Below are positions 487 through 31,952 of a stretch of DNA of 34,561 nt, one piece after another (positions within the stretch are counted from its first letter, which is position 1; the number at the start of each line of letters is the position of its first letter). Position numbers and translations under genes: made by a program. Source of the stretch: a virus. The stretch lies in the IMG/VR virus record IMGVR_UViG_3300034683_000622, positions 1-34,561 of that record; one strand, given 5' to 3'. Below the pieces are notes generated by a model, which saw only the letters and a list, made by a program, of their open reading frames with translations, made no database searches and was not told where the DNA came from.

Positions 487-1217
487 TAAGTAATTTAAAA
501 ACATTTGAAAATAAGAATTTTGGAAAACTCACTGTTATAGAAAAAGACGGTGAGTTTTTCTTTATAGCAAATGAAGTAGCAACTATGTTGGGATATGTTA
601 ATCCAAGAAAAGCTATTTATGACCATGTAGATGAAGAAGATAAGGGTGTAACGAAATGGAACACCCCTGGAGGAATACAGAATATTTCAATAATTAACGA
701 ATCAGGATTGTATTCACTTATCCTCTCATCAAAACTACCACAAGCAAAAATATTCAAGGCTTGGGTAACTAGAGAAGTCTTACCAAGTATTAGAAAAAAC
801 GGAGGATATATAGTAGGGCAAGAAAAGAAAACTAATGAAGAAATACTTGCAGATGCAATTCTTGTAGCCAATAGAATTATTGCCGAGAGAGAAGAAGAGA
901 TTGAAGAATTAAGACCAAAGGCAGACTATTATGACAAATTAGTAGATTATAACCTACTTACAAACTTTAAAAATACTGCCAAAGAGTTAGGAATACCACA
1001 AAACCAGTTTATAAGTTTTTTAATGGATAAAGGATTAATTTATAGGGATAAGAAAAAGAAACTCTTACCATATGCAGATAAGAACAAAGGATATTTTGAA
1101 GTAAAGGAATGGGTTGATCCACTAGGTACACTTGTAGGAATACAAACATTTATAACACCAAAGGGAAGACACTACCTACTAATTTTATTAGATAGTGAAG
1201 GTTTCTACGATGAATAA
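483..1217 (+). CDS. BRO-N / KilAC-type phage antirepressor-like protein
   Basis: A 244-residue protein with an N-terminal BRO-N domain (about 5-105; the stretch GEFFFIANEVATMLGY and later SGLYSLILSSKLPQAKIFK are characteristic) and a C-terminal KilAC/ANT-type DNA-binding region (about 145-240, including NFKNTAKELGIPQNQF, ITPKGRHYL and related segments). A short coiled-coil-like stretch lies between (EREEEIEEL). Family members in phages act as antirepressors or DNA-binding regulators. Here the gene sits inside the conjugation operon: its start overlaps pcfB by four bases (ATGA) and its end overlaps virD4. This suggests co-transcription and a regulatory role in the element rather than a stray phage gene. 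The target is unknown. Confidence 0.8.
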   Translation: MISNLKTFENKNFGKLTVIEKDGEFFFIANEVATMLGYVNPRKAIYDHVDEEDKGVTKWNTPGGIQNISIINESGLYSLILSSKLPQAKIFKAWVTREVLPSIRKNGGYIVGQEKKTNEEILADAILVANRIIAEREEEIEELRPKADYYDKLVDYNLLTNFKNTAKELGIPQNQFISFLMDKGLIYRDKKKKLLPYADKNKGYFEVKEWVDPLGTLVGIQTFITPKGRHYLLILLDSEGFYDE

Positions 1218-3006
1218 GATATTGGAAGCTGTTCTTTCTGATATTAAAAACTTAATTAAAATAGACAACCCAAAGAAATTTATATTATCAAACATTCCCT
1301 ATTTATCATTTTGTTACATTGGAAATATTTTTTCTAAGCACATCAATTCTTATGTAGGAGGAGATATTATTGATAGAATAATGGTGGGAATTTCTGATAT
1401 AGGAACTTTATCTTATATACCAAGCCTTAATCCAAGGGACTTGTTAGTAGGTATTTCAGTTGCTGGTCTTGTTAAGCTACTTGTTTATAGTAAAGGTAAA
1501 AATAAAAAGAAATATAGGCAAGGCAAGGAATATGGATCTGCAAGATGGGGAGAAAGTAAGGATATTGCTCCATATATTGACCCAAAGTTTGAAAATAATG
1601 TACTAATAACTAATACCGAAAGACTTACAATGAACTCAAGACCTAAAAATCCTAAATACGCTAGAAATAAAAATGTATTGGTAATAGGTGGTTCTGGATC
1701 AGGTAAAACAAGATTTTATGTAAAGCCAAATCTAATGCAAATGCACTCTTCCTATGTAGTAACAGACCCTAAAGGCACACTTGTCTTAGAGTGTGGAAAA
1801 ATGCTTTATGAAAATGGATATGACATAAAGATTTTAAATACAATAAACTTTAAAAAGTCCATGAAATACAATCCCTTTGCTTATTTGAGAAGTGAAAAAG
1901 ATATTTTAAAGCTTGTCCAAACTATAATTGCTAACACCAAGGGAGATGGAGAAAAGGCAGGAGAAGATTTCTGGGTAAAGGCTGAGAAGTTATATTACAC
2001 CGCCCTTATCGGATATATCTATTATGAAGCACCTGAAGAAGAAAAGAACTTTAAGACACTTTTGGATATGATTGACGCAAGTGAGGTCAGAGAAGATGAT
2101 GAAACCTATATGAACCCCATTGATAGGCTTTTTGAGGCTCTTGAAAAGAAAGATCCAAGTCATTTTGCAGTTAAGCAATATAAGAAATATAAGCTGGCAG
2201 CAGGAAAAACTGCCAAGTCAATTCTCATATCTTGTGGAGCAAGACTTGCACCTTTTGACATAAGAGAACTTAGAGAGCTAATGAGTGAAGATGAATTAGA
2301 ACTTGATAAAATTGGAGATAGAAAAACTGCTTTATTCGTAATAATATCAGATACTGACGATACTTTTAACTTTGTAGTCTCAATAATGTATTCCCAATTA
2401 TTTAATCTATTATGTGATAAGGCAGATGATGTGTATGGTGGAAGACTTCCTGTTCATGTAAGATGTCTACTTGATGAGTTTGCCAATATAGGCTTAATTC
2501 CAAAATTTGAAAAATTGATTGCAACAATTCGTTCAAGAGAAATATCAGCAAGTATAATACTGCAAGCACAATCTCAATTAAAAGCAATTTACAAAGATCA
2601 TGCAGATACAATAGTTGGTAACTGTGACTCAACACTCTTTCTAGGAGGAAAAGAAAAAACAACAGTAAAAGAGTTATCAGAAACCTTAGGAAAAGAAACC
2701 ATAGACCTATATAACACATCAGAAACAAGGTCAAATCAAAAATCTTTTGGTCTAAATTACCAAAAGACTGGGAAGGAACTTATGAGCCAAGATGAAATAA
2801 CTGTAATGGATGGTGGTAAGTGTATATACCAGCTAAGAGGAGTAAGACCTTTCTTATCTGATAAATTTGATATTACAAAGCATAAAAATTACAAGTTGTT
2901 GGAAGATTATGATAAGAAGAACTTGTTTGATGTGGAAGAGTATCTAACAAATAGAGATAAGGTAAAGTTAAAATCAAGTTATAAGATAAATAGGTTAAAC
3001 ATTTGA
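1210..3006 (+). CDS. VirD4/PcfC-type type IV coupling ATPase
   Basis: Type IV secretion coupling protein that would dock the relaxase-DNA complex at the membrane channel and drive transfer. N-terminal hydrophobic segments (about 20-40 and 80-95) precede a cytoplasmic ATPase with Walker A GGSGSGKT at residues 160-167 and a Walker B region LLDEFANIG around 420-428. The TDPKG and QAQSQL motifs typical of the TraG/VirD4 family are also present. An in-frame GTG lies at 1195, but I prefer ATG 1210, preceded by GAAGG eight bases away; this start overlaps the antirepressor gene by eight bases. At 598 residues it is full length for the family. A decayed second copy of its C-terminal half lies downstream at 3330-3764. 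Confidence 0.93.
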   Translation: MNKILEAVLSDIKNLIKIDNPKKFILSNIPYLSFCYIGNIFSKHINSYVGGDIIDRIMVGISDIGTLSYIPSLNPRDLLVGISVAGLVKLLVYSKGKNKKKYRQGKEYGSARWGESKDIAPYIDPKFENNVLITNTERLTMNSRPKNPKYARNKNVLVIGGSGSGKTRFYVKPNLMQMHSSYVVTDPKGTLVLECGKMLYENGYDIKILNTINFKKSMKYNPFAYLRSEKDILKLVQTIIANTKGDGEKAGEDFWVKAEKLYYTALIGYIYYEAPEEEKNFKTLLDMIDASEVREDDETYMNPIDRLFEALEKKDPSHFAVKQYKKYKLAAGKTAKSILISCGARLAPFDIRELRELMSEDELELDKIGDRKTALFVIISDTDDTFNFVVSIMYSQLFNLLCDKADDVYGGRLPVHVRCLLDEFANIGLIPKFEKLIATIRSREISASIILQAQSQLKAIYKDHADTIVGNCDSTLFLGGKEKTTVKELSETLGKETIDLYNTSETRSNQKSFGLNYQKTGKELMSQDEITVMDGGKCIYQLRGVRPFLSDKFDITKHKNYKLLEDYDKKNLFDVEEYLTNRDKVKLKSSYKINRLNI

Positions 3007-3024: not shown

Positions 3025-3300
3025 ATGTGTGAAAATAGAAAATCATCTTTAATTATATTAAATATAAATGGGGAGCAGTTTATTCTAGAAAGTGATACAG
3101 AACTCACTAGTGATAAGAAAAATTATATTGAAGCAATATGTGAGACAATGTACGATGAAAGTAATGAATGGTATGAAGATATTTACGATATGTCACCATA
3201 TGATATAGCTGAGCTATTTGAAAAAACAGTAAAAGACGAAGTAGGAATAACTGTTACATTTAAAGCGATAGACCTCGAAGTATCTATTTTAGAAGACTAG
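3025..3300 (+). CDS. Small acidic protein of unknown function
   Basis: A 91-residue acidic protein without membrane segments or recognisable domain. It starts at ATG 3025 behind ACGGAG, 18 bases after virD4, so it is probably co-transcribed with it. The middle is rich in aspartate, glutamate and tyrosine (YDESNEWYEDIYDMSPYD). It lies between the intact virD4 and the decayed virD4 copy, so it may have arrived with, or been duplicated with, the intact copy. I do not recognise a function. Confidence 0.6.
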   Translation: MCENRKSSLIILNINGEQFILESDTELTSDKKNYIEAICETMYDESNEWYEDIYDMSPYDIAELFEKTVKDEVGITVTFKAIDLEVSILED

Positions 3301-3329
3301 AAATAATGTGTTAATAGGCGATAGAAATT

Positions 3330-3764
3330 AAAAACTCTCAAGAGAAATATCAACAAGTATAATACTTCAAGCACAATCTTAATAAAAATCAATTTACAAA
3401 GACCATGCGTATACAATAGTTGGCAACTGTGATTTTACACTCTTTCTAGGAGAAAAAGAAACCATAGATCTATGTAACACATAAGAAACAAGATCAAACC
3501 AGAAATCTTTTGGACTAAATTACCAGAAAACTGGCAAGTAACTTATTAGCTAGGATGAAATAACTGTAATGGATGGCGGTAAGTTTATATACCAAATTAA
3601 GAGGAGTAAGACCTTTCTTGCCTTATAAATTTGATATTACAAAGCATAAGAATTAAAAGTTATTAGAAGATTATGATAATGAAAACTTGTTTGATGTGGA
3701 AGAGTATTTAAAGCAAAAAGGGAGGGCGAAGTTGACACCAAATACAAGGATATTTAGGGTATGA
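3330..3764 (+). pseudogene. Decayed C-terminal part of a second virD4
   Basis: The sequence from about 3330 runs closely parallel to virD4 from about 2530 to 2960: matching words include AGAGAAATATCA, CAATTTACAAAGA, TAACTGTAATGGATGG and TTTGATGTGGAAGAGTAT. The copy carries several stops where virD4 has sense codons (for example CAA TTA became TAA TAA, and a TCA became TAA). It also has a frameshift before the AGAGGAGTAAGACC-like segment, and a 42-base in-frame loss. In virD4 that lost stretch is bounded by two copies of GGAAAAGAAA at 2647 and 2689. Its end differs from the intact gene: in the frame restored by the last shift it reads EEYLKQKGRAKLTPNTRIFRV and a stop. It therefore looks like the relic of a divergent virD4 rather than a recent duplicate. 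Confidence 0.88.
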
Positions 3765-3801
3765 TATATATGATATAAATTAAGAAAGAGGAGGAAAAAC
3801 A

Positions 3802-4110
3802 TTGGTTGATTATTTATTCAATTCATCTGGAGAATGGATCTGTTTCAAAGTTAATAAATTTATTTGGGACAAAAATGGAAAATTGATAGGATGGCTTCCG
3901 TGGGGAGATAATGAAGTTGTTACAATGAAAGGAGATTATTTAGGAACTATTGTAGATAAGGATAGAATTTATTATTTTACAAATCATCCTTATAGAGGCA
4001 ATCCAGGCTATCCAGGTTATCCGGGTTATCCAGGCTATCCAGGTTATCCAGGATTTGCTGGATATAAGCCTTTACCATCGGGTGCAAAAGATATAGTTAT
4101 AAAAAAATAA
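3802..4110 (+). CDS. 4-fold beta flower-like protein with Gly-Tyr-Pro repeats
   Basis: A 102-residue protein starting at TTG 3802, seven bases after a strong GAGGAGG at 3788-3794; no ATG fits this site. Residues 1-65 contain repeated short units built around hydrophobic-x-G turns (SSGEWICF, NGKLIGWLPWG, KGDYLGTIV, KDRIYYFTN), as in proteins annotated as 4-fold beta flower. A collagen-like tract of five PGY repeats follows (about residues 68-85, around 4000-4055), then a short tail. The family resemblance is from memory and moderate. It stands alone between a decayed gene and two terminators, so it is probably an accessory gene rather than a transfer component. Confidence 0.55.
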   Translation: MVDYLFNSSGEWICFKVNKFIWDKNGKLIGWLPWGDNEVVTMKGDYLGTIVDKDRIYYFTNHPYRGNPGYPGYPGYPGYPGYPGFAGYKPLPSGAKDIVIKK

Positions 4111-4135: not shown

Positions 4136-4170
4136 AAAGCAGTAAGTCTAATATGATTTGCTGCTTTTTT
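4136..4170 (+). terminator. Rho-independent terminator after the beta-flower-like gene
   Basis: A seven-base stem, AAAGCAG (4136-4142) with CTGCTTT (4161-4167), encloses an 18-base loop and runs into six to seven T residues. It lies 25 bases after the stop at 4110. The large loop makes it a moderate-strength terminator. Confidence 0.6.
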
Positions 4171-4197
4171 ATATCCAACAATTTGAAGGAGGTTAAA

Positions 4198-4224
4198 ATG
4201 GTAAGGATAAGAAGTCCCACTTAA
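4198..4224 (+). CDS. Putative 8-residue leader peptide
   Basis: A strong AAGGAGG at 4186-4192 precedes ATG 4198 by five bases, and the frame stops after eight codons (MVRIRSPT). A perfect terminator-type hairpin follows 24 bases later, before the SSB-like gene. Good initiation signal, tiny frame and downstream hairpin together look like a leader or attenuator, but it may equally be the stub of a deleted gene. Confidence 0.35.
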   Translation: MVRIRSPT

Positions 4225-4248
4225 AACAATTTAATATATAAGACATTT

Positions 4249-4280
4249 AGCGATTGAATTATAAGTTCAGTCGCTTTTTT
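4249..4280 (+). terminator. Strong intrinsic terminator / possible attenuator upstream of the transfer operon
   Basis: A ten-base stem, AGCGATTGAA (4249-4258) paired with TTCAGTCGCT (4266-4275) with one G-T wobble, has a seven-base loop and a T run to 4280. It sits between the eight-codon frame and the SSB-like gene, so read-through here would decide expression of the following operon. Confidence 0.75.
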
Positions 4281-4313
4281 AATTGAAATTTTTAGATTAA
4301 GGAGAAGAAATTA

Positions 4314-4625
4314 ATGGATAGAGAAATGATAAATATTAATGCAAATTTAGTTAAGGAAGCTGAATTCTCAGAATTTGAAAAAGATGGAGAAAATGTTCAA
4401 GTAGCAAATTTTGCTCTTGTTAAAAAATATGGAAAGGGCAAAGAATATACAAATTGCTCAGTATATGGAGAAAAGGTAGAAATTGTAAAAGAATTTGAAA
4501 AAGGGGATCTAATCCATGTCTTTGGATATTTCAAAGAAAATAAAAAAGGAGATAAGGTCTACAAGAATTTTATAGTTAAATCACTAAACAAAATAGAAAA
4601 TAAGAAAGAAAACGAGGAGGAATAA
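4314..4625 (+). CDS. SSB-like OB-fold protein
   Basis: A 103-residue protein with an OB-fold pattern like single-stranded DNA-binding proteins: an N-terminal strand (ININANLVKEAEF), then VANFALVKKY, YTNCSVYGEKVEIVKEF, then GDLIHVFGYFKENKKGDKVYKNFIV, and a short acidic tail. It is shorter than housekeeping SSB and lacks the usual DDDIPF tip. The second half of the protein at 24439-25095 is clearly similar (YTNCS-x-YG, GD-x-(I/V)-(H/K)-(V/I)-FG), so the element carries two related OB-fold genes. ATG 4314 follows AAGGAG. The next gene starts two bases after its stop. Coating the transferred strand is the likely role, by inference. Confidence 0.7.
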   Translation: MDREMININANLVKEAEFSEFEKDGENVQVANFALVKKYGKGKEYTNCSVYGEKVEIVKEFEKGDLIHVFGYFKENKKGDKVYKNFIVKSLNKIENKKENEEE

Positions 4626-4626
4626 T

Positions 4627-4842
4627 ATGGAATTTTTTACAGCTGGAGTTGGAGTTTTAAAGACACTTGTAACTGCAATTGGTGCAGGTTTAGGAGCATG
4701 GGGAGTTATTAACTTGATGGAAGGTTATGGTAATGATAACCCTGGTGCTAAATCTCAAGGTATTAAGCAGCTTATGGCTGGTGGGGGAATTGTACTAATC
4801 GGTATTAAATTAATTCCACTACTTGCAAATGCTTTAAATTAG
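4627..4842 (+). CDS. Maff2 family small membrane protein
   Basis: A 71-residue protein with two hydrophobic helices (about 5-28 and 48-68) and a central polar loop containing YGNDNPGAKSQGIKQLM, typical of the Maff2 family found just before the VirB6-like gene in CTn/Tn1549 elements. Size and topology resemble VirB2/TrbC-type pilin-like subunits, but that role is inference. A strong GAGGAGG, located in the end of the preceding gene, positions ATG 4627. Confidence 0.82.
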   Translation: MEFFTAGVGVLKTLVTAIGAGLGAWGVINLMEGYGNDNPGAKSQGIKQLMAGGGIVLIGIKLIPLLANALN

Positions 4843-11583: not shown

Positions 11584-13144
11584 TACGAACAGACTAAGAG
11601 CCTTTTTTATGGCTCTTTTATTAGTTTTAACATCAACCTCAACTACTAATGTACTAGCTAAAGCTGATGATACAGATGGTAGTAAAAAAGTGATAGAAAG
11701 TTCAATAAGTAAAATTAGTGATTTAGAAAATCAGATCAAAGACTTAAATGATAAGAAACAAGAAGACCAATCAAAGATAGATGAATTAAAGGAAAAGTTA
11801 GAATCTTGCAAAGATAATGGAGAGAAACTAAAACAAGAAAAAGCTAAGCTAGAAGAAGAAATTAGAGATAAAGACAATAAGATTGCTCAATTGAATAAAG
11901 AAATTGATGATCTTAAAAACTCCAATAATGATGAACTAATAGCAGAAATTACTCAGCTTAAAGATGAATTAAAAAGATTACAAGATGAAAATGCAAAACT
12001 AAAAGAAGATTATTCATCTACAAAATGGGAGTTAGAAGCTGAGAAAGAAAAGACTGATAAAAACGAAAATAAAATCAAAGAAATGCAAGAAAAGCTTGAG
12101 TCTTTAGAAGGAGAACTTGCAAAGAAGACTAAAGAAATTGAGGATAAAGACAATAGAATTAAGGACTTAGAAAAAGCTCTTGATGAAAAAGATACTAAGA
12201 TAAAAGACTTAGAGTCTAAAAAGAAAGAAATAGAAAATTCTAAGTCAGAATGTTGTAATAAAATTGAAGAGCTTCAAAAGGCTATTGATAGTTTAAAAGA
12301 ATCTTCTGAAAATACAAAAAAAGAATTAGAAGAGAAGATTAAAGGATTAGAAGAAAAACAAAAAGCTTCTGAAGAAGAAATTAAAAAGCTAAAAGAAGAT
12401 TTAGATAAGAAAATTGAAGAAGCCAAGAAGTTAATCGAGGAAGCAAATAAAAAAGCTAAAGAAGAACTTGAAAAGCAAGCTAAAGATGAAAAAGATAAAA
12501 ATCTAAACCAAGACTTATCTAAGAAATTAGATGAACTTCTAAAACTCCAAAAAGAAAAGAAAGAAGATAAGAAATCTCAAGATAAGAAGTGGGACGAACT
12601 TTTGAAAGCTGATGACAAGAATATCCTAAATCAATTTGATCTTAACAAGATGAAAGAGCAAGAGGAACAACAAGGTAAAAAACAAGTTAAAGATGAAAAA
12701 GGATTTGCAGTTTTTCAAGTAGACAAAAACTTTTATAACATTATCAACAAAGATGGTAAGACAACAGTTTACATGGATGTAAAAACTTATGTAGACCAAG
12801 GAAGAACTATGATTCCAGTTAGATATATTGCCTATACTCTAGGTTTTAATGTTGAGTATGACAACTCTACTCGTGAAGCCATTTTCTCAAATAAAGAGAA
12901 TAATATCTTAGCTAAAAAAACGTTAAGACTAAATATTGATACTGGTGTTATGAAAGATTCAGATGGAAAGGTCTACAATTCAGATGTTAAGCCAGTGATT
13001 ATAAATGGAAGAATTCATGCTTCAATTTCAAATATTGCTAAAGCTTTTGGAGCAAGTCATGGAGATATTAAAGATGGTAAAAACCAAACAATAGAATGGG
13101 ACAATGCTAGAAAAGCAGTCTATGTATTTAAAAATGTAAAATAA
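11570..13144 (+). CDS. Secreted coiled-coil protein with copper-amine-oxidase-N-like domain
   Basis: A 524-residue exported protein. Residues 1-31 are a signal peptide (basic KKFNTNRLR, hydrophobic FFMALLLVLT, cleavage expected near VLAKA). Residues about 40-350 form an almost uninterrupted coiled coil rich in Lys, Glu, Asp and Leu. The last 140 residues resemble the 'copper amine oxidase N-terminal' stalk domain that Bacillota use as a surface module (YVDQGRTMIPVRYIAYTLG is typical, with a second INGRIHASISNIAKAFG segment). No sortase motif is seen. By position in the transfer operon, a cell-surface or mating-contact role is plausible; that is inference. The start ATG 11570 follows AAAGGAGA. 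Confidence 0.75.
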   Translation: MKKFNTNRLRAFFMALLLVLTSTSTTNVLAKADDTDGSKKVIESSISKISDLENQIKDLNDKKQEDQSKIDELKEKLESCKDNGEKLKQEKAKLEEEIRDKDNKIAQLNKEIDDLKNSNNDELIAEITQLKDELKRLQDENAKLKEDYSSTKWELEAEKEKTDKNENKIKEMQEKLESLEGELAKKTKEIEDKDNRIKDLEKALDEKDTKIKDLESKKKEIENSKSECCNKIEELQKAIDSLKESSENTKKELEEKIKGLEEKQKASEEEIKKLKEDLDKKIEEAKKLIEEANKKAKEELEKQAKDEKDKNLNQDLSKKLDELLKLQKEKKEDKKSQDKKWDELLKADDKNILNQFDLNKMKEQEEQQGKKQVKDEKGFAVFQVDKNFYNIINKDGKTTVYMDVKTYVDQGRTMIPVRYIAYTLGFNVEYDNSTREAIFSNKENNILAKKTLRLNIDTGVMKDSDGKVYNSDVKPVIINGRIHASISNIAKAFGASHGDIKDGKNQTIEWDNARKAVYVFKNVK

Positions 13145-14088: not shown

Positions 14089-15810
14089 ATGAAGTTAGTA
14101 ATAGCAGAAAAGCCAAGTGTAGCAGTTACAATTGCAAAAGTAATTGGAGCAAGGTCAAGAAAAAACGGATATTATGAGGGTAATGGATACGTTGTTTCCT
14201 GGTGTGTAGGTCATTTAATTCAAATGGCAAGTCCAGAAAGACACGACGAAAAATGGAAGAAATGGACAATAGACACTCTTCCTATAATCCCAGAAGAATA
14301 TATTTATGAAGTATCTAAAAGCACTAAGAAACAATATGGAGTTTTAAAGAAGCTTTTAAACGATAAGAACATCGACACAGTTATAAATGCTTGTGATGCT
14401 GGAAGAGAAGGAGAACTTATTTTTAGGCTTGTATATAATCAAGCTAAATGTAAGAAGAAGATTCAAAGGCTTTGGATATCTTCAATGGAAAACAAAGCTA
14501 TTGAAGATGGCTTTAGAAATCTTAAAGACGGAGAAAACTTTGAAGACTTATATAGATCGGCAAGTGCAAGAGCAATTGCGGATTGGCTAGTAGGAATGAA
14601 TCTAAGTAGGCTTTATTCTTGCATTTACAAGGAAACATATTCAGTTGGTAGAGTACAAACACCAACTCTATATTTAATAGCTAAAAGGGATAGTGAAATA
14701 AACCTATTTAAGAAGCAAAAATATTATACAGTTGACCTATCTTATGGAGGATTGAAACTTGTATCAGATAGGATTGATAAAATTGAAGTTGCAGAACAAC
14801 TATTAAATCTGCTAGAAGATGAAATAGTTATTACAGAGGTAGAAGATAAAGAAATAAGTACAAAACCAGATAAGCCTTATGATCTCACTACCTTACAAAG
14901 AGAAGCAAATAAATATTTTGGATATTCAGCAAATGACACTTTAAACCTGGCACAAGGCTTGTATGAAAAAAAGCTAATCACATATCCAAGAACAGATAGC
15001 AGGTATTTAACCGATGATATGGTTAATACTATGAAAGAATTATTAGAAGGACTTGAAGAAGATTTTAAAATCAATGAATCAAACTTTAAGTCTATTTTTA
15101 ATTCATCTAAAGTTACAGACCACTATGCAATTATTCTTACTATATCAGGCATTGGAAAAGCTAAAGATTTATCTGATAAAGAAAGCAAAATCTACAATCT
15201 AATTAAGAATAAATTACTTGCTTCATGTTCGGATAACTTAAAGGAATCTAGTAGAAAAATCAGATATGAATATGATAAATTTAACTTCAATGCAAGTGGC
15301 AAGACTGTAATAGATGAAGGTTATACAAAGTATCTAAAGACTTATGGAAAAGAAAAACAAGAAAATGAATTACCAGATATAAAGACTGGAGATAAAATTA
15401 AGCTAACTTCTAAAAACATATCTGAGAAATTTACAAAAGCTCCAAGCCATTATAATGAAGATACGCTTTTAAAGGCTATGGAGAATGCAGGAGTAGAGTC
15501 TTTGGATAAAGACATAGAAGTAGAAAGAAAAGGCTTAGGAACACCAGCTACAAGAGCAGGAATTATAGAAAATCTTATCCATAAGGATCTCATAAGAAGA
15601 GATAAGAAAAATCTACTTGTAACAGAAAAAGGCAATAGACTTGTATCGATTGTAGAGGATAAGTTTAAGTCGGCAGAAACAACTTCTGAATGGGAAATGA
15701 AACTTGCAAAGATTAGCTCTGGCGAAGTAGATAAAGAAGACTTTTTAAGAGAAATAGAAGATAGTATAAGGGAGCTTGTAGATAGGTACAAGAATAATCT
15801 AAATGAATAA
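14089..15810 (+). CDS. topB: DNA topoisomerase III (type IA)
   Basis: A 573-residue type IA topoisomerase of the kind carried by conjugative elements. The Toprim domain begins at residue 2 (KLVIAEKPSVA) and contains the metal-binding DAGREGEL at about 103-110. The catalytic tyrosine is Tyr299 in LITYPRTDSRYL. The downstream GLGTPATRAGIIENL motif, a family hallmark, is present. It would relax or decatenate DNA during element replication and transfer. ATG 14089 is preferred over the in-frame ATG 14077, because the GGAGG at 14079-14083 can only serve the later start. No zinc fingers follow the core, which is usual for TopB of mobile elements. Its last eight bases overlap the methyltransferase gene. 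Confidence 0.93.
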   Translation: MKLVIAEKPSVAVTIAKVIGARSRKNGYYEGNGYVVSWCVGHLIQMASPERHDEKWKKWTIDTLPIIPEEYIYEVSKSTKKQYGVLKKLLNDKNIDTVINACDAGREGELIFRLVYNQAKCKKKIQRLWISSMENKAIEDGFRNLKDGENFEDLYRSASARAIADWLVGMNLSRLYSCIYKETYSVGRVQTPTLYLIAKRDSEINLFKKQKYYTVDLSYGGLKLVSDRIDKIEVAEQLLNLLEDEIVITEVEDKEISTKPDKPYDLTTLQREANKYFGYSANDTLNLAQGLYEKKLITYPRTDSRYLTDDMVNTMKELLEGLEEDFKINESNFKSIFNSSKVTDHYAIILTISGIGKAKDLSDKESKIYNLIKNKLLASCSDNLKESSRKIRYEYDKFNFNASGKTVIDEGYTKYLKTYGKEKQENELPDIKTGDKIKLTSKNISEKFTKAPSHYNEDTLLKAMENAGVESLDKDIEVERKGLGTPATRAGIIENLIHKDLIRRDKKNLLVTEKGNRLVSIVEDKFKSAETTSEWEMKLAKISSGEVDKEDFLREIEDSIRELVDRYKNNLNE

Positions 15811-16768
15811 GGTAAAAATATTAGAGCTTTTCGGTGGCATAGGTGCTATTAGAAAGGCTTTTATTAATTTGAAGATACCTTATGAAGTAGTTGATTATGT
15901 AGAAATAGATAAGGCTTGTGTTAAATCATACAACGCACTTTATGGAGAAGACTATAAGCCAAAATCAGTAGTAGGATATAAAGCTCCTAATGAAAAGATA
16001 GACTTAATTATGCATGGAAGTCCTTGCCAAGACTTTTCAAGAATAGGAAAAAAACAAGGAGGAGTAAAGAATTCAGGAACTAGATCAAGCTTACTATTTG
16101 AAACAATTAGAATAATTAAAGAAATGAAAGATAAACCTAAATGGATAATTTGGGAAAATGTAAAGGGAGTCCTTGATAGAAATATGAGGGACTCTTTTTT
16201 TATTTATCTAAAAGAGCTAGAAAACCTTGGATATTAAAGCAAGTATGAAATCTTAAATGCAATGGACTTTTGGATACCTCAAAAAAGGGAGAGGATATTT
16301 GTTGTTTCATGTCTTGGAGCAAATAACTTTTCTTTTAATAAATTGGAGAGGAAAGAAACAAGACCACTAAGTGAATTTTTAGAAAAGGATGTAAGTGAAC
16401 TTTATACAATGACCCAACCTTATATGCTGAAATTTTTAAATAAAGGCATAGATAATAGTTTTAGAGGGCGACTAAAAGTGATTAAAGATTTTTCTTATAC
16501 TATTTCTACAAAACAGATGAGAGTACCCAATTCTGGAGTAATAGATATTGGAAATGGTAAATATAGGTATTTAACAGAAAGAGAATGTTTAAGACTCATG
16601 GGTTTTGATGATAGAGATATAGACAAACTAGAAGAAGTACATCCAAGAAGAAAAAATTGCACCTCAAGTAAACTATATAAACAGGCTGGCAATTCTATTG
16701 TAGTTGATTTTTTAATGGCTATTATAAAAGAAATTTATAGAATGGAGGTAGTAAATGCAAGTAAATGA
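15803..16768 (+). pseudogene. C5-cytosine DNA methyltransferase with one in-frame stop
   Basis: A single reading frame carries all main C5-cytosine methyltransferase motifs: motif I LELFGGIGAIRKAF (SAM binding), PCQDFS with catalytic Cys75, WENV at 117-120, QKRERIF, RYLTERECLRLMGF and the C-terminal QAGNSIVVDF. It is interrupted only by TAA at 16235-16237, just after LENLGY. The frame continues without any shift to 16768 (KYEILNAMDFWIPQKRERIF follows). The ATG 16262 after the stop lacks a good ribosome binding site, so a separately translated second half is unlikely. A Trp stands where relatives usually have Gly (DFGIPQ). ICE-borne methylases of this kind protect incoming DNA from restriction. 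Start ATG 15803 overlaps topB. Confidence 0.88.
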
Positions 16769-28336: not shown

Positions 28337-28397
28337 AATCGTTGATATATAAGGGTTTCAGAGGTAATATGTGACCTACCAAGAAGGAGGTGAGAGG

Positions 28398-29963
28398 ATG
28401 AAAAAGATAACAAAAATAGAAGGAAATCTAGCCAACTCTTTTCTTAAGCCAAAAACACGAGTGGTTGCCTACTGCCGAGTTTCAACAGATAGTAATGAAC
28501 AGCTAGTCAGCTTGCAAGCACAAAAGGCTCATTATGAGTCCTACATAAAGGCAAATCCAGAATGGGAATATGCAGGCTTATATTATGACGAGGGAATCAG
28601 CGGTACGAAAAAGGAAAATCGCTCTGGTCTTCTTAAAATGTTATCAGACTGTGAAACTGGGAAGATTGACTTAATTATTACAAAGTCCATCAGCCGATTT
28701 GCGAGAAATACTACAGACTGCTTGGAGATGGTTCGCAAACTGATTGACCTTGGGGTTCATATCTATTTTGAGAAGGAAAATATCAATACGGGGTCAATGG
28801 AAAGTGAGTTGATGCTTTCTATATTAAGCGGGCTTGCAGAAAGTGAGTCAATTTCCATTTCGGAAAATACTAAGTGGGCAATTCAAAGACGATTTCAGAA
28901 CGGAACTTTTAAGATTTCATATCCACCATATGGTTATGACAACATTGATGGTCAAATGGTGATAAACCCTAAGCAGGCTGAAGTTGTGAAGTATATTTTT
29001 GCAGAGGTATTATCGGGAAAAGGTACACAGAAAATTGCAGATGATCTTAATCAAAAGGGTATTCCATCAAAAAGAGGTGGTCGTTGGACGGCTACTACCA
29101 TTCGAGGGATTCTGACCAATGAAAAATATACTGGCGATGTTATTTTGCAAAAGACCTATACTGACCGCCATTTTAACAGGCACACCAATTATGGTGAGAA
29201 AAATATGTATCTAGTAGAAAACCACCATGAGGCAATTATCAGCCATGAAGATTTTGAAGCTGTGGATGCCATTCTCACTCAGAGAGCAAAGGAAAAAGGC
29301 ATCGAAAAGCGCAATAACAAATATCAAAACCGATATTCTTTCTCCAGCAAAATTATCTGCTCGGAATGTGGCAGTACCTTTAAAAGACGGATTCATTCGT
29401 CTGGAACAAGAAAATACATTGCTTGGTGCTGTAGCAAGCATATAAGCCAGATAACGGAATGTTCTATGCAGTTCATTCGAGATGATGATATAAAGACGGC
29501 ATTTGTTACGATGATGAATAAACTCATTTTCGGTCAGAAGTTCATATTAAAACCACTTTTGGATGGGTTACGTAACCAGAATAGTGCAGCGAGTTTTCTC
29601 AGAATTGAAGAGTTGGAAACTAAGATTGAAAACAACATGGAGCAGAGCCAGATGCTGACAGGTTTACTGGCCAAAGGATATCTGGAACCTGCTCTGTTTA
29701 ATAAAGAAAAGATTTCACTGGAAGCAGAAAGAGAAAGACTTCTTGCTGAAAAGGATCAACTTACTCGTTCCATCAATGGCAATTTTGCAAAAGTAGACGA
29801 GGTTGACCGTCTGCTTAAGTTTACCACTAAGTCCAAAATGCTCAAAACCTATGAGGATGAGCTGTTTGAAAATTACGCAGAGAAGATTATTGTTTATTCA
29901 CGAGAGATAGTTGGATTTGAATTAAAATGCGGAATCACATTGAAGGAAAGGTTGGTGAATTAG
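28398..29963 (+). CDS. Large serine recombinase 1
   Basis: A 521-residue large serine recombinase. Resolvase-type catalytic domain (about 20-155) with catalytic Ser29 in AYCRVSTD and the arginine-containing SISRFARNT segment; recombinase domain (about 170-280, PPYGYDNIDGQMVINPKQ then NEKYTGDVILQKTY); zinc ribbon (CSECG then WCC, about 315-345); and a coiled coil (about 400-460). ATG 28398 follows AAGGAGG; an in-frame GTG 28371 lies upstream of that site and is disfavoured. It ends with TAG immediately followed by the ATG of the next gene, so translation is probably coupled. All catalytic residues appear intact. Confidence 0.92.
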   Translation: MKKITKIEGNLANSFLKPKTRVVAYCRVSTDSNEQLVSLQAQKAHYESYIKANPEWEYAGLYYDEGISGTKKENRSGLLKMLSDCETGKIDLIITKSISRFARNTTDCLEMVRKLIDLGVHIYFEKENINTGSMESELMLSILSGLAESESISISENTKWAIQRRFQNGTFKISYPPYGYDNIDGQMVINPKQAEVVKYIFAEVLSGKGTQKIADDLNQKGIPSKRGGRWTATTIRGILTNEKYTGDVILQKTYTDRHFNRHTNYGEKNMYLVENHHEAIISHEDFEAVDAILTQRAKEKGIEKRNNKYQNRYSFSSKIICSECGSTFKRRIHSSGTRKYIAWCCSKHISQITECSMQFIRDDDIKTAFVTMMNKLIFGQKFILKPLLDGLRNQNSAASFLRIEELETKIENNMEQSQMLTGLLAKGYLEPALFNKEKISLEAERERLLAEKDQLTRSINGNFAKVDEVDRLLKFTTKSKMLKTYEDELFENYAEKIIVYSREIVGFELKCGITLKERLVN

Positions 29964-30377
29964 ATGGGTCACATACCCTATGGATATAGAATTGAAAACG
30001 GTAAGGCTGTTGTGGATGAAATAGCATCGGAGCGGGTAAAAGAATTATTTTCAGGATACTTGGCAGGACTTTCTTTGAAGGGTGCTGCTAAAAAAGCTGG
30101 GATAGACTGCTACCATGCCACAGTAAGTAAGATGTTGCAGAATAAGCACTACCTTGGCGATGAATTCTACCCTCCAATTATTGATGAGGAGACCTTTGAA
30201 AAAGCCAGAGTAGAAAGACGAAAACGAGCAGAAAAGCTAGGAAGGATATGGGAGCCTAAAGATGAACCAAAAACGGATTATCCTGTAAAGTTCAAAGCAA
30301 AGTCTCTGGTGCAAAAATATGAAGACCCATACAAGCAGGCAGAATATGCTTACAGTTTGATAGAAAGTGAGGTGTAA
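29964..30377 (+). CDS. Catalytic-domain-less recombinase-family protein
   Basis: A 137-residue protein that matches only the recombinase domain of large serine recombinases (IPYGYRIENGKAVVDEIA at the N-terminus, then SKMLQNKHYLGDEFYPPIID). It has no resolvase domain or catalytic serine, no zinc ribbon and no coiled coil. The start codon is directly after the previous stop and the next gene begins three bases after its own stop, so the trio is one operon. Small partners of this kind occur between two large recombinases in other Clostridia elements. It may be an accessory DNA-binding or directionality factor, which is inference; it could also be the relic of a third recombinase. Confidence 0.8.
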   Translation: MGHIPYGYRIENGKAVVDEIASERVKELFSGYLAGLSLKGAAKKAGIDCYHATVSKMLQNKHYLGDEFYPPIIDEETFEKARVERRKRAEKLGRIWEPKDEPKTDYPVKFKAKSLVQKYEDPYKQAEYAYSLIESEV

Positions 30378-30380
30378 CCA

Positions 30381-31952
30381 GTGGCGGTAAGTAGGAATGT
30401 AACAGTGATTCCAGCAATTAAACGAGTCGGAAATAATAAAAATAGTGAAAGCAAACCCAAAATTCGAGTGGCTGCTTACTGCCGTGTTTCAACGGATAGT
30501 GAGGAGCAGGCTTCGAGCTATGACATTCAGATTGAGCATTATACAAATTATATTAAGAAGAACAAGGAATGGGAATTGGCAGGGATTTTTGCGGATGACG
30601 GTATCACAGGTACAAATACCAAAAAGCGTGATGAATTCAACCGCATGATTGAAGAGTGCATGGCAGGCAATATTGACATGATCATCACAAAATCCATAAG
30701 CCGATTTGCCAGAAACACGTTGGACTGCCTTAAATACATCCGTCAGTTAAAGGATAAAAACATCGCTGTGTTCTTTGAAAAAGAGAATATAAACACCATG
30801 GATTCTAAGGGTGAAGTCCTGCTGACCATTATGGCATCCCTTGCCCAACAGGAAAGCCAGTCCTTAAGCCAAAACGTTAAGCTGGGTATTCAGTATCGCT
30901 ATCAGCAAGGTGAAGTTCAGGTCAACCACAAGCGTTTCCTTGGATACACCAAAGATGAAAATAAGCAATTGGTGATTGACCCAGAGGGTGCTGAGGTTGT
31001 TAAACGGATTTACAGGGAGTACCTTGAGGGTGCGAGCCTTTTACAAATAGCAAGAGGACTGGAAGCAGACGGTGTTCTAACAGCGGCAGGCAAAGCAAAA
31101 TGGAGACCTGAAACACTGAAAAAGATACTGCAGAATGAAAAATACATCGGGGATGCACTCTTGCAAAAGACCTATACGGTTGACTTCCTTTCCAAAAAGC
31201 GTGTCAAGAATAATGGTATTGTTCCCCAGTATTATGTGGAAAACAGCCATGAACCTATCATTCCCCGTGACCTTTTTATGCAGGTTCAAGAAGAGATGGT
31301 TCGAAGAGCGAATCTCCGAGGCGGTAAGGGCGGTAAAAAGCGAGTCTATAGTAGTAAATATGCCTTATCGAGTATTGTTTACTGCGGGCAATGCGGTGAT
31401 ATTTACCGACGAGTACACTGGAATAACCGAGGTTACAAGTCTATTGTTTGGAGATGCGTCAGCCGTTTAGAGGAAAAAGGATCTGAATGTACGGCCCCTA
31501 CCATAAACGAGGAGACATTACAGACAGCAGTGGTCAGGGCTATTAACGAACTTTTGGCTAACAAAGAGCCTTTCCTCTCAACCTTGCAGAAAAACATAGC
31601 TACCGTACTTAATGAAAAAAATGATAATGCCACCGATGATATTGATAGAAAATTGGAAGAGTTACAACAACAGCTCCTTATACAAGCAAAATCCAAGAAT
31701 GACTATGAAGATGTGGCTGATGAAATTTATCGACTTCGGGAGTTAAAGCAAAATGCACTTGTAGAGAATGCAGAGCGAGAAGGGAAAAGGCAACGAATAG
31801 CTGAAATGACTGATTTCTTTAATGAGCAATCCTGCGAGTTAGAGGAATATGATGAACAGTTAGTAAGGAGGCTTATTGAAAAAGTTACGATTCACGATGG
31901 CAGGGTTGAAGTGGAATTTAAGTCAGGCATTAGTATAGACATTGAAAATTGA
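30381..31952 (+). CDS. Large serine recombinase 2
   Basis: A 523-residue large serine recombinase starting at GTG 30381. Catalytic Ser37 lies in [17 protein letters not shown] follows in the resolvase domain (about 28-170). Then come the recombinase domain (about 180-290; [38 protein letters not shown]), a zinc ribbon (CGQCG then WRC, about 335-360), and a coiled coil (about 415-490). It is clearly homologous to recombinase 1 but diverged, so the pair is not a recent duplication. Base use is richer in G and C than in the ICE. A terminator follows, ending the operon. Confidence 0.92.

Follow-up and report, generated by a model that had tools for sequence, protein, structure and literature searches.

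The locus between virD4 and ssb

The window, by which we mean the whole stretch of 34,561 nucleotides that was analysed, is an IMG/VR virus record and consists mostly of part of a conjugative element. It encodes a VirD4 of the CD1115 type (NF045973, 579 bits for a cut-off of 250) and, in the same cluster, a VirB4 of the CD1110 type (NF045971, 1041.6 bits for a cut-off of 325). The presence of these two proteins in one cluster is a feature of the CD1115-type VirD4 conjugative elements, whose gene order is Tn1549-like. The record is a 34.6-kb fragment, and no relaxase is recognised among the ORFs of at least 100 amino acids after position 13100.

Between 25587 and 31952, the conjugative-element genes yield to phage late genes that encode a 401-aa protein (no Pfam match), a holin and a SPOR-domain amidase, adjoined by three serine recombinase ORFs (28371–31952). 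This region is 67–70% like Streptococcus Javan-type phages and gut phages. It is the end of a prophage joined to the conjugative element, which may be the reason why the record was classed as viral. We also note that a C5 cytosine DNA methylase (15803–16768) is split into two ORFs (15803–16237 and 16262–16768) and is probably broken.

The features of the locus are all on the + strand. An antirepressor gene (483–1217; Bro-N and ANT domains, PF02498 and PF03374) stands upstream of the intact gene of the virD4-type coupling protein (1210–3006; PF02534 and PF12696), whose start is taken from the annotation of the pAPRE01 homologue. On the other side, the backbone continues with the gene of a single-stranded DNA-binding protein (ssb, 4314–4625, identified from the annotation of the pAPRE01 homologue), preceded by a conserved leader (4165–4313) which forms the right flank of the variable slot. 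This leader includes a short ORF (ATGGTAAGGATAAGAAGTCCC...) followed by a terminator-like hairpin and T run at 4249–4275 (4198–4275 for the whole); the arrangement is conserved in relatives and looks like an attenuator.

The slot between virD4 and ssb contains a gene for a 91-aa protein (3025–3300), the left half of a terminator (3317–3338), the relic of a virD4 3' end that is the subject of this study, and a gene for a 102-aa protein. The 91-aa protein has no Pfam, NCBIfam or PADLOC match. The 102-aa protein (3802–4110, TTG start) resembles the 4-fold beta flower family (Bflower, PF21784, E = 1.4e-4), with a score of 22.6 bits that is below the cut-off of 25. A candidate terminator of the Bflower module (AAAGCAGTAA ... 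TTGCTGCTTTTTT, 4136–4170) was read by eye, is of the same type as in L011 and L117, and is not listed by the terminator scan.

The relic and its junction

The relic covers 3338–3764 and matches virD4 from 2533 to 3003, the last quarter of the gene. BLAST of positions 3301–3801 against the intact virD4 gives E = 1e-111, with 79.2% identity over 428 columns including gaps, and chance is excluded as the source of this match. The original prediction had placed the relic at 3330–3764: the end is correct (the TGA of the tail is at 3762–3764), while the match begins only at 3338. When the relic is read in frame, five stops occur before 3593, a +1 shift at 3594 and one further internal stop, that is, six premature stops before the final QKGRAKLTPNTRIFRV-stop. 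In addition, virD4 has two GGAAAAGAAA repeats, starting at 2647 and 2689, and the 42-base unit defined by these two starts is missing from the relic. The nonsense changes, the frameshift and the 42-base loss that had been described from the sequence are thus all present. So is the difference at the C-terminal end: in ungapped comparison with the virD4 of the same element, the identity is 88.6% (295/333) for 3338–3671 and 69.6% (64/92) for 3672–3764.

The differences between the window relic and the family consensus fall on codon positions 1/2/3 in the numbers 9/6/19, against 14/0/107 in 11 intact genes pooled (chi-square p = 6e-7; eight of ten relics were pooled in this analysis, with the siblings L193 and L198 set aside). 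The spread over codon positions in the relic shows that it evolves without coding constraint, as expected from the idea of an old copy that is decaying. The alignment with intact genes included the 10 relics of the window's junction, without L196, a near twin of L197. The 42-base loss is common to eight of the 10 aligned relics and is found in none of the 16 intact genes, which speaks for a common descent of the relic; at the same site, the loss is larger in L005, and 31 of the 42 bases remain in L006. The loss is flanked by direct repeats and could have recurred independently. In L192, the reading frame of the relic is still open from end to end, so that the degree of decay varies between relics.

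The point where the relic begins is informative. There, the left half of the slot terminator (GGCGATAGAAATTAAAAACTCT) is joined to position 2533 of virD4, with ends that overlap by approximately 1 base. The terminator is whole in the relatives that have no relic. Eight loci (L002, L003, L008–L010, L082, L083 and L096) follow the window to about 3338 (3333 in L008) and resume at 4164 or 4165, within a few bases, directly in the ssb leader; in the seven whose sequence was read across this point (L002, L003, L008–L010, L082 and L083), a terminator of the GGCGATAGAAATTAAAAACTCTATCGTCTTTTTT type is completed by this direct resumption. In four other loci (L005, L006, L007 and L118), a virD4 3' end interrupts the terminator at the same base as in the window, and a terminator of the GGCGATAGAAATTAAAAACTCTATCGTCTTTTTT form is found again at the right end of the slot. 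A second copy of GGCGATAGAAATTAAAAACTCT is present at this right end in L004–L007 and L118.

In a family search, nine of 130 genomes align through the junction of the window; in a tenth (G030), the junction follows another cargo gene, and a search of the taxonomic order found it in the same 10 of 249 genomes. Similarity to the window stops exactly at base 3338 in 20 other places of 19 genomes (in the 130-genome family search), and in 18 of these 20 places it resumes at 4164–4166 (one place, in G001:C2, was seen through L133). An exact pattern scan of viral contigs returned three contigs, all of which were already among the earlier matches. That the junction is common to 10 other genomes shows that the event is old and was inherited, and decay confined to the element of the window is therefore rejected. 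The junction results from one old event, and the cargo behind it varies.

The original prediction considered the replacement, in this element, of an older and divergent virD4 by a newly acquired one, the old copy being left to decay. The relic does decay, and its end does differ from that of the intact gene. However, positions 3338–3671 of the relic are 87–91% identical to every close intact virD4 tried (87.1–90.7% for six of the intact genes), as opposed to 69–82% for more distant genes (L014, L027 and L031); these first 334 bases belong to the same close family as the intact gene, which suggests that their divergence is mostly decay. Moreover, the junction was inherited in 10 other genomes with different cargo, and the tail of the relic is a separate, later import. 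We consider that replacement is extremely unlikely.

The origin of the tail is visible in identity profiles. The window is 84.1% identical to L214 up to 3666 and 99.0% from there to 4163, and 86.3% identical to L215 up to 3676 and 99.6% from there to 4163 (0/1000 shuffles reach either change point); the left crossover of the imported module is thus best placed at 3666–3676. Against L224, the identity goes from 89.8% to 99.5%, with a step estimated at 3740 (0/1000 shuffles). There is no such step between L214 and L215 or between L214 and L224 (248 and 105 of 1000 shuffles reach it, respectively). In L214 and L215, the Bflower gene is preceded by virD4 sequence that starts at nt 2839 and is fused to part of a dead gene unrelated to it, and to the left of 3603, L214, L215 and L224 are unrelated to the window. 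The tail at 3672–3764 lies inside the stretch that is 96–100% identical to L214 and L215, and is only 64.1–69.6% identical to six intact tails. Judging from this jump in identity, the relic is a chimera, whose first 334 bases are older and whose remainder was imported, the Bflower module having arrived with the last ~95 bases of its own virD4 tail. Recombination between related elements, the other explanation considered at the outset, is thus supported, as a later import of tail and Bflower. To the right of 4165, the window is 96.7% identical to L003 and L010 and 96.8% identical to L214, which places the right crossover in the ssb leader region and no more precisely.

These observations also bear on a local tandem duplication of the virD4 3' end, the 91-aa gene and the half terminator, followed only by decay and by the loss of the second copy of the 91-aa gene. 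Such a duplication would produce exactly the junction that is observed and would account for the repeated GGCGATAGAAATTAAAAACTCT on the right side of the slot in L005–L007 and L118, and it agrees with the family to which 3338–3671 belongs; for that part of the relic alone, it remains compatible with the data. For the tail it is refuted, since 3672–3764 is 69.6% identical to the intact tail and yet lies in a stretch that is 96–100% identical to L214 and L215. It had been anticipated that a simple duplication would leave a relic closest to its own virD4 along its full length, which is not what the tail shows. Besides, in the 11 elements read, what follows the relic is never a second 91-aa gene but one of seven different modules. 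Duplication followed only by decay is thus an unlikely account of the whole.

Cargo modules and identity boundaries in the virD4 tail

The seven modules behind a junction of the window type, in 11 elements, are the following: Bflower in the window; the Kiwa defence proteins KwaB and KwaA in L006 (8752–10247; PADLOC, 6.6e-110 and 4.8e-46); a DUF1706 protein with a polyketide-cyclase-like protein and a SAP-domain protein in L192 and L194; a 383-aa protein in L005; a 226-aa protein in L007; two small proteins with no Pfam match in L118; and a 106-aa protein in L193, L196, L197 and L198. The Bflower gene is found at 97–100% DNA identity in three of the 130 genomes, and its protein has four weak matches in viral contigs. 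The DUF1706 (ClbS/DfsB) module stands behind three intact virD4 genes and behind 12 relic entries, two of which are one place; the virD4 tail that goes with it reads KIKINRNSLITRL wherever it has been kept. This count for the DUF1706 module takes in the window, L002–L120 and L190–L221, the short loci L121–L189 being left out; the same place appears twice among the loci as L118/L195, L006/L191, L003/L221 and L028/L211.

Whether the antirepressor, virD4 and the 91-aa gene came as one block was a question raised beforehand. The genes for PcfB, the antirepressor and VirD4 form a common backbone, which is also present without the 91-aa gene in L011, L040 and L117. In these three loci and in L012 and L013, which all lack the 91-aa gene, virD4 ends differently after nt 2917–2977. 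The three genes are thus not one block; the 91-aa gene alone, which is the cargo of the first slot and travels with a virD4 tail of its own (KVKLKSSYKINRLNI), acts as a module that can be exchanged. In L192 (3756–4223), the 91-aa protein is the C-terminal part of an HTH_3 regulator and stands behind another virD4 tail remnant (3548–3670); that locus contains several units of tail and cargo in a row.

Dead virD4 3' ends also occur in at least four other settings. They start at 2702 behind a gene for a class II (LysRS-type) tRNA synthetase ending in a tRNA-binding domain (L204–L207, L209 and L210; domains identified in L205), at 2839 behind a dead-gene fragment (L212, L214, L215 and L224), and at 2793 behind a gene for a 72-aa HTH protein (L211, L216 and L221); in A. 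marasmi (G005), they stand in a row with other cargo (L190 and L202). The synthetase gene had been taken for metG on account of its tRNA-binding 3' end, which is wrong: the domain in L205 ends a class II synthetase of the LysRS type. In L212, the gene before virD4 has no Pfam match and would be a methyltransferase fragment, judging from its sequence alone.

We compared the abundance of such ends with that of other gene parts, using 311-base probes on the same 130 genomes. At most five candidates were scored per genome, so that the counts are lower bounds: the virD4 3' end has at least 183 matches, distributed over 83 genomes, the middle of virD4 at least 142 (78 genomes) and the virB4 3' end at least 119 (74 genomes). 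Among the matches listed, virD4 3' ends are more numerous than virD4 middles in 39 genomes, the reverse being true of 10 (p = 4e-5). They outnumber virB4 ends in 48 genomes and are fewer in five; the virD4 middle, too, is in excess over the virB4 end, in 23 genomes against five. General ICE debris is rejected as an explanation, the excess of fragments being strongest for the virD4 3' end despite the 10 exceptions. Besides the window, five of the 115 related loci (L003, L005, L006, L007 and L028) have a further virD4 fragment on the same strand, and L114 has one on the opposite strand. The pattern is narrow and is missing outside the close family of the window.

As a separate observation, in many relatives the similarity to the virD4 of the window starts sharply at nt 2201 (residue ~330). 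Of the 123 plasmid records matched, 94 are from Enterococcus, and those listed carry the fragment from 2201 on; in two of the Enterococcus records listed, its neighbours include VanZ-family genes, carboxypeptidase genes and an IS256-family transposase.

For most tested pairs of related loci, the limit of the DNA that they share lies between 2902 and 2977 of virD4, according to change points and 50-base identity profiles (19 comparisons; those of the relics of the window and of L118 with the virD4 of the same locus were not used, being overlapping self-alignments). When the left side is the same and the cargo differs, the identity is lost at 2914 (L204/L210), 2918 (L211/L221) and 2947 (L212/L214) for dead ends, and at 2961, 2914 and 2918 for intact genes (window against L117, L012 and L013, respectively), with 0/500 shuffles in each case. 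These six pairs are distinct and come from four left contexts (L028/L003, which repeats L211/L221, is not counted). When the cargo is the same and the left side differs, the identity between L118 and L213 goes up at 2977, the step between L194 and L206 is less clear and falls just after the stop codon, and L192 and L205 have no change point (407/500 shuffles reach it).

Another reading is site-specific integration, in which the virD4 3' end would be the target of a recombinase belonging to small mobile modules, and the relics would be scars of attachment sites. IMEs with serine integrases are known to insert within traG (virD4) and maff2 of ICEs (PMC5357655). A break in maff2 (window 4742–4778) fits such an insertion: in L002, L003, L009 and L083 the match stops at 4744, and in the first three of these it starts again at 4742 after some 2.7 kb, as by insertion of an IME; many other relatives break at 4778 in this region. 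On the contrary, the ORF lists of the seven modules contain no recombinase apart from a transposase-like ORF in L006, no integrase ORF is found between 3006 and 4314 in the window, the left junctions differ (virD4 2533, 2702, 2793 and 2839) and the change points are spread over ~75 bases. Site-specific integration is therefore very unlikely.

Proposed mechanism and comparison with known systems

We propose, as the probable explanation of these sequence data, that the relic is a dead virD4 3' end which persists as a homology arm, and that virD4 3' ends, alive or dead, are the left arm for the exchange of cargo between ICEs and relics, Kiwa (KwaAB) included. In the ancestor, virD4 would have been followed by the 91-aa gene, the terminator and ssb. 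Either a tandem duplication or a junction with a related element then presumably brought another virD4 3' end, beginning at nt 2533, into the terminator, with an overlap of ~1 base. This copy lost its coding constraint and decayed in the descendants, most of which share the 42-base loss. The DNA behind it was then swapped between elements, with left crossovers that would lie in the last ~100 bases of virD4, where the identity boundaries are seen, and, in the case of the window, a right crossover in the ssb leader region. The import into the window, of the last ~95 bases of a different virD4 tail and the Bflower gene, would be recent. The agent of the exchanges is presumably homologous recombination of the RecA type, between related elements that reside in the same cell. 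The same exchange would take place at the intact virD4 and at dead virD4 ends elsewhere, which would explain why the last ~15 codons of the intact gene vary with the neighbouring cargo. The relic would be useful through the homology that it offers, and a protein product would be unneeded. It appears to have no coding role and to serve as matching DNA for swaps of accessory genes, including phage defence genes.

A stronger version is that the virD4 3' end is a dedicated capture handle, that selection retains intact and dead virD4 ends next to cargo slots because through them cargo, including defence genes, is traded between elements and chromosomal remnants (the lysS end, for example), and that the VirD4 tail is linked to the cargo and may tune which element is served. 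We regard this as rather improbable.

If the homology-arm mechanism is correct, apparent junk is a readable record of the trade in accessory genes within one family of conjugative elements, Kiwa phage defence included. It would explain how elements that are otherwise nearly identical come to differ at the end of a gene essential for conjugation, it predicts the site of the next exchange, and it makes it simple to test whether gene flow between mobile elements is steered by short dead ends of genes.

We found no description, in the open-licence literature, of dead ends of virD4 or of other coupling genes as points of cargo exchange. The closest analogue would be the orphan rhs-CT array. In Rhs systems, and likewise in CDI, a conserved gene swaps its 3' end together with a linked downstream gene (rhs-CT/rhsI); 3' fragments that have been displaced are located after the main gene, each followed by a downstream gene of its own, and are able to recombine with the main gene (PMC3967940). 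Here too, a 5'-truncated copy of a gene end, with another downstream gene, stands behind the intact gene, and the breakpoints in the virD4 tail, in most pairs (the exceptions are L192/L205 and L194/L206), point to exchange by homologous recombination in the shared part. On the contrary, the variable end and the downstream gene are not a toxin/immunity pair, since the virD4 tail of ~15 residues is not a domain and the cargo consists of Bflower, DUF1706, KwaAB and others. The gene is that of a coupling protein, only its last ~15–20 residues vary, the cargo is unrelated to the end of the protein, and dead ends also stand alone at other sites in the genome. The likeness is thus one of mechanism only, and we do not count the virD4 relic as a member of the Rhs/CDI-like systems.

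Streptococcal IMEs insert within traG (virD4), maff2 and snf2 of ICEs (PMC5357655). The target genes in related ICEs are the same as here, but those insertions are driven by an integrase, unlike the relic modules read here, which have none and whose left junctions differ. The ICEs of the ICESa2603 family have intergenic hotspots in which variable DNA occupies fixed places of the backbone, some of them at the 3' ends of conserved genes (PMC4735348, in the portion seen). Variable DNA at fixed backbone places is also what we observe, whereas dead copies of the neighbouring gene, or breakpoints inside the gene, are not described in that portion of the paper. We consider the exchange at virD4 ends as a variant of hotspot exchange by homologous recombination.
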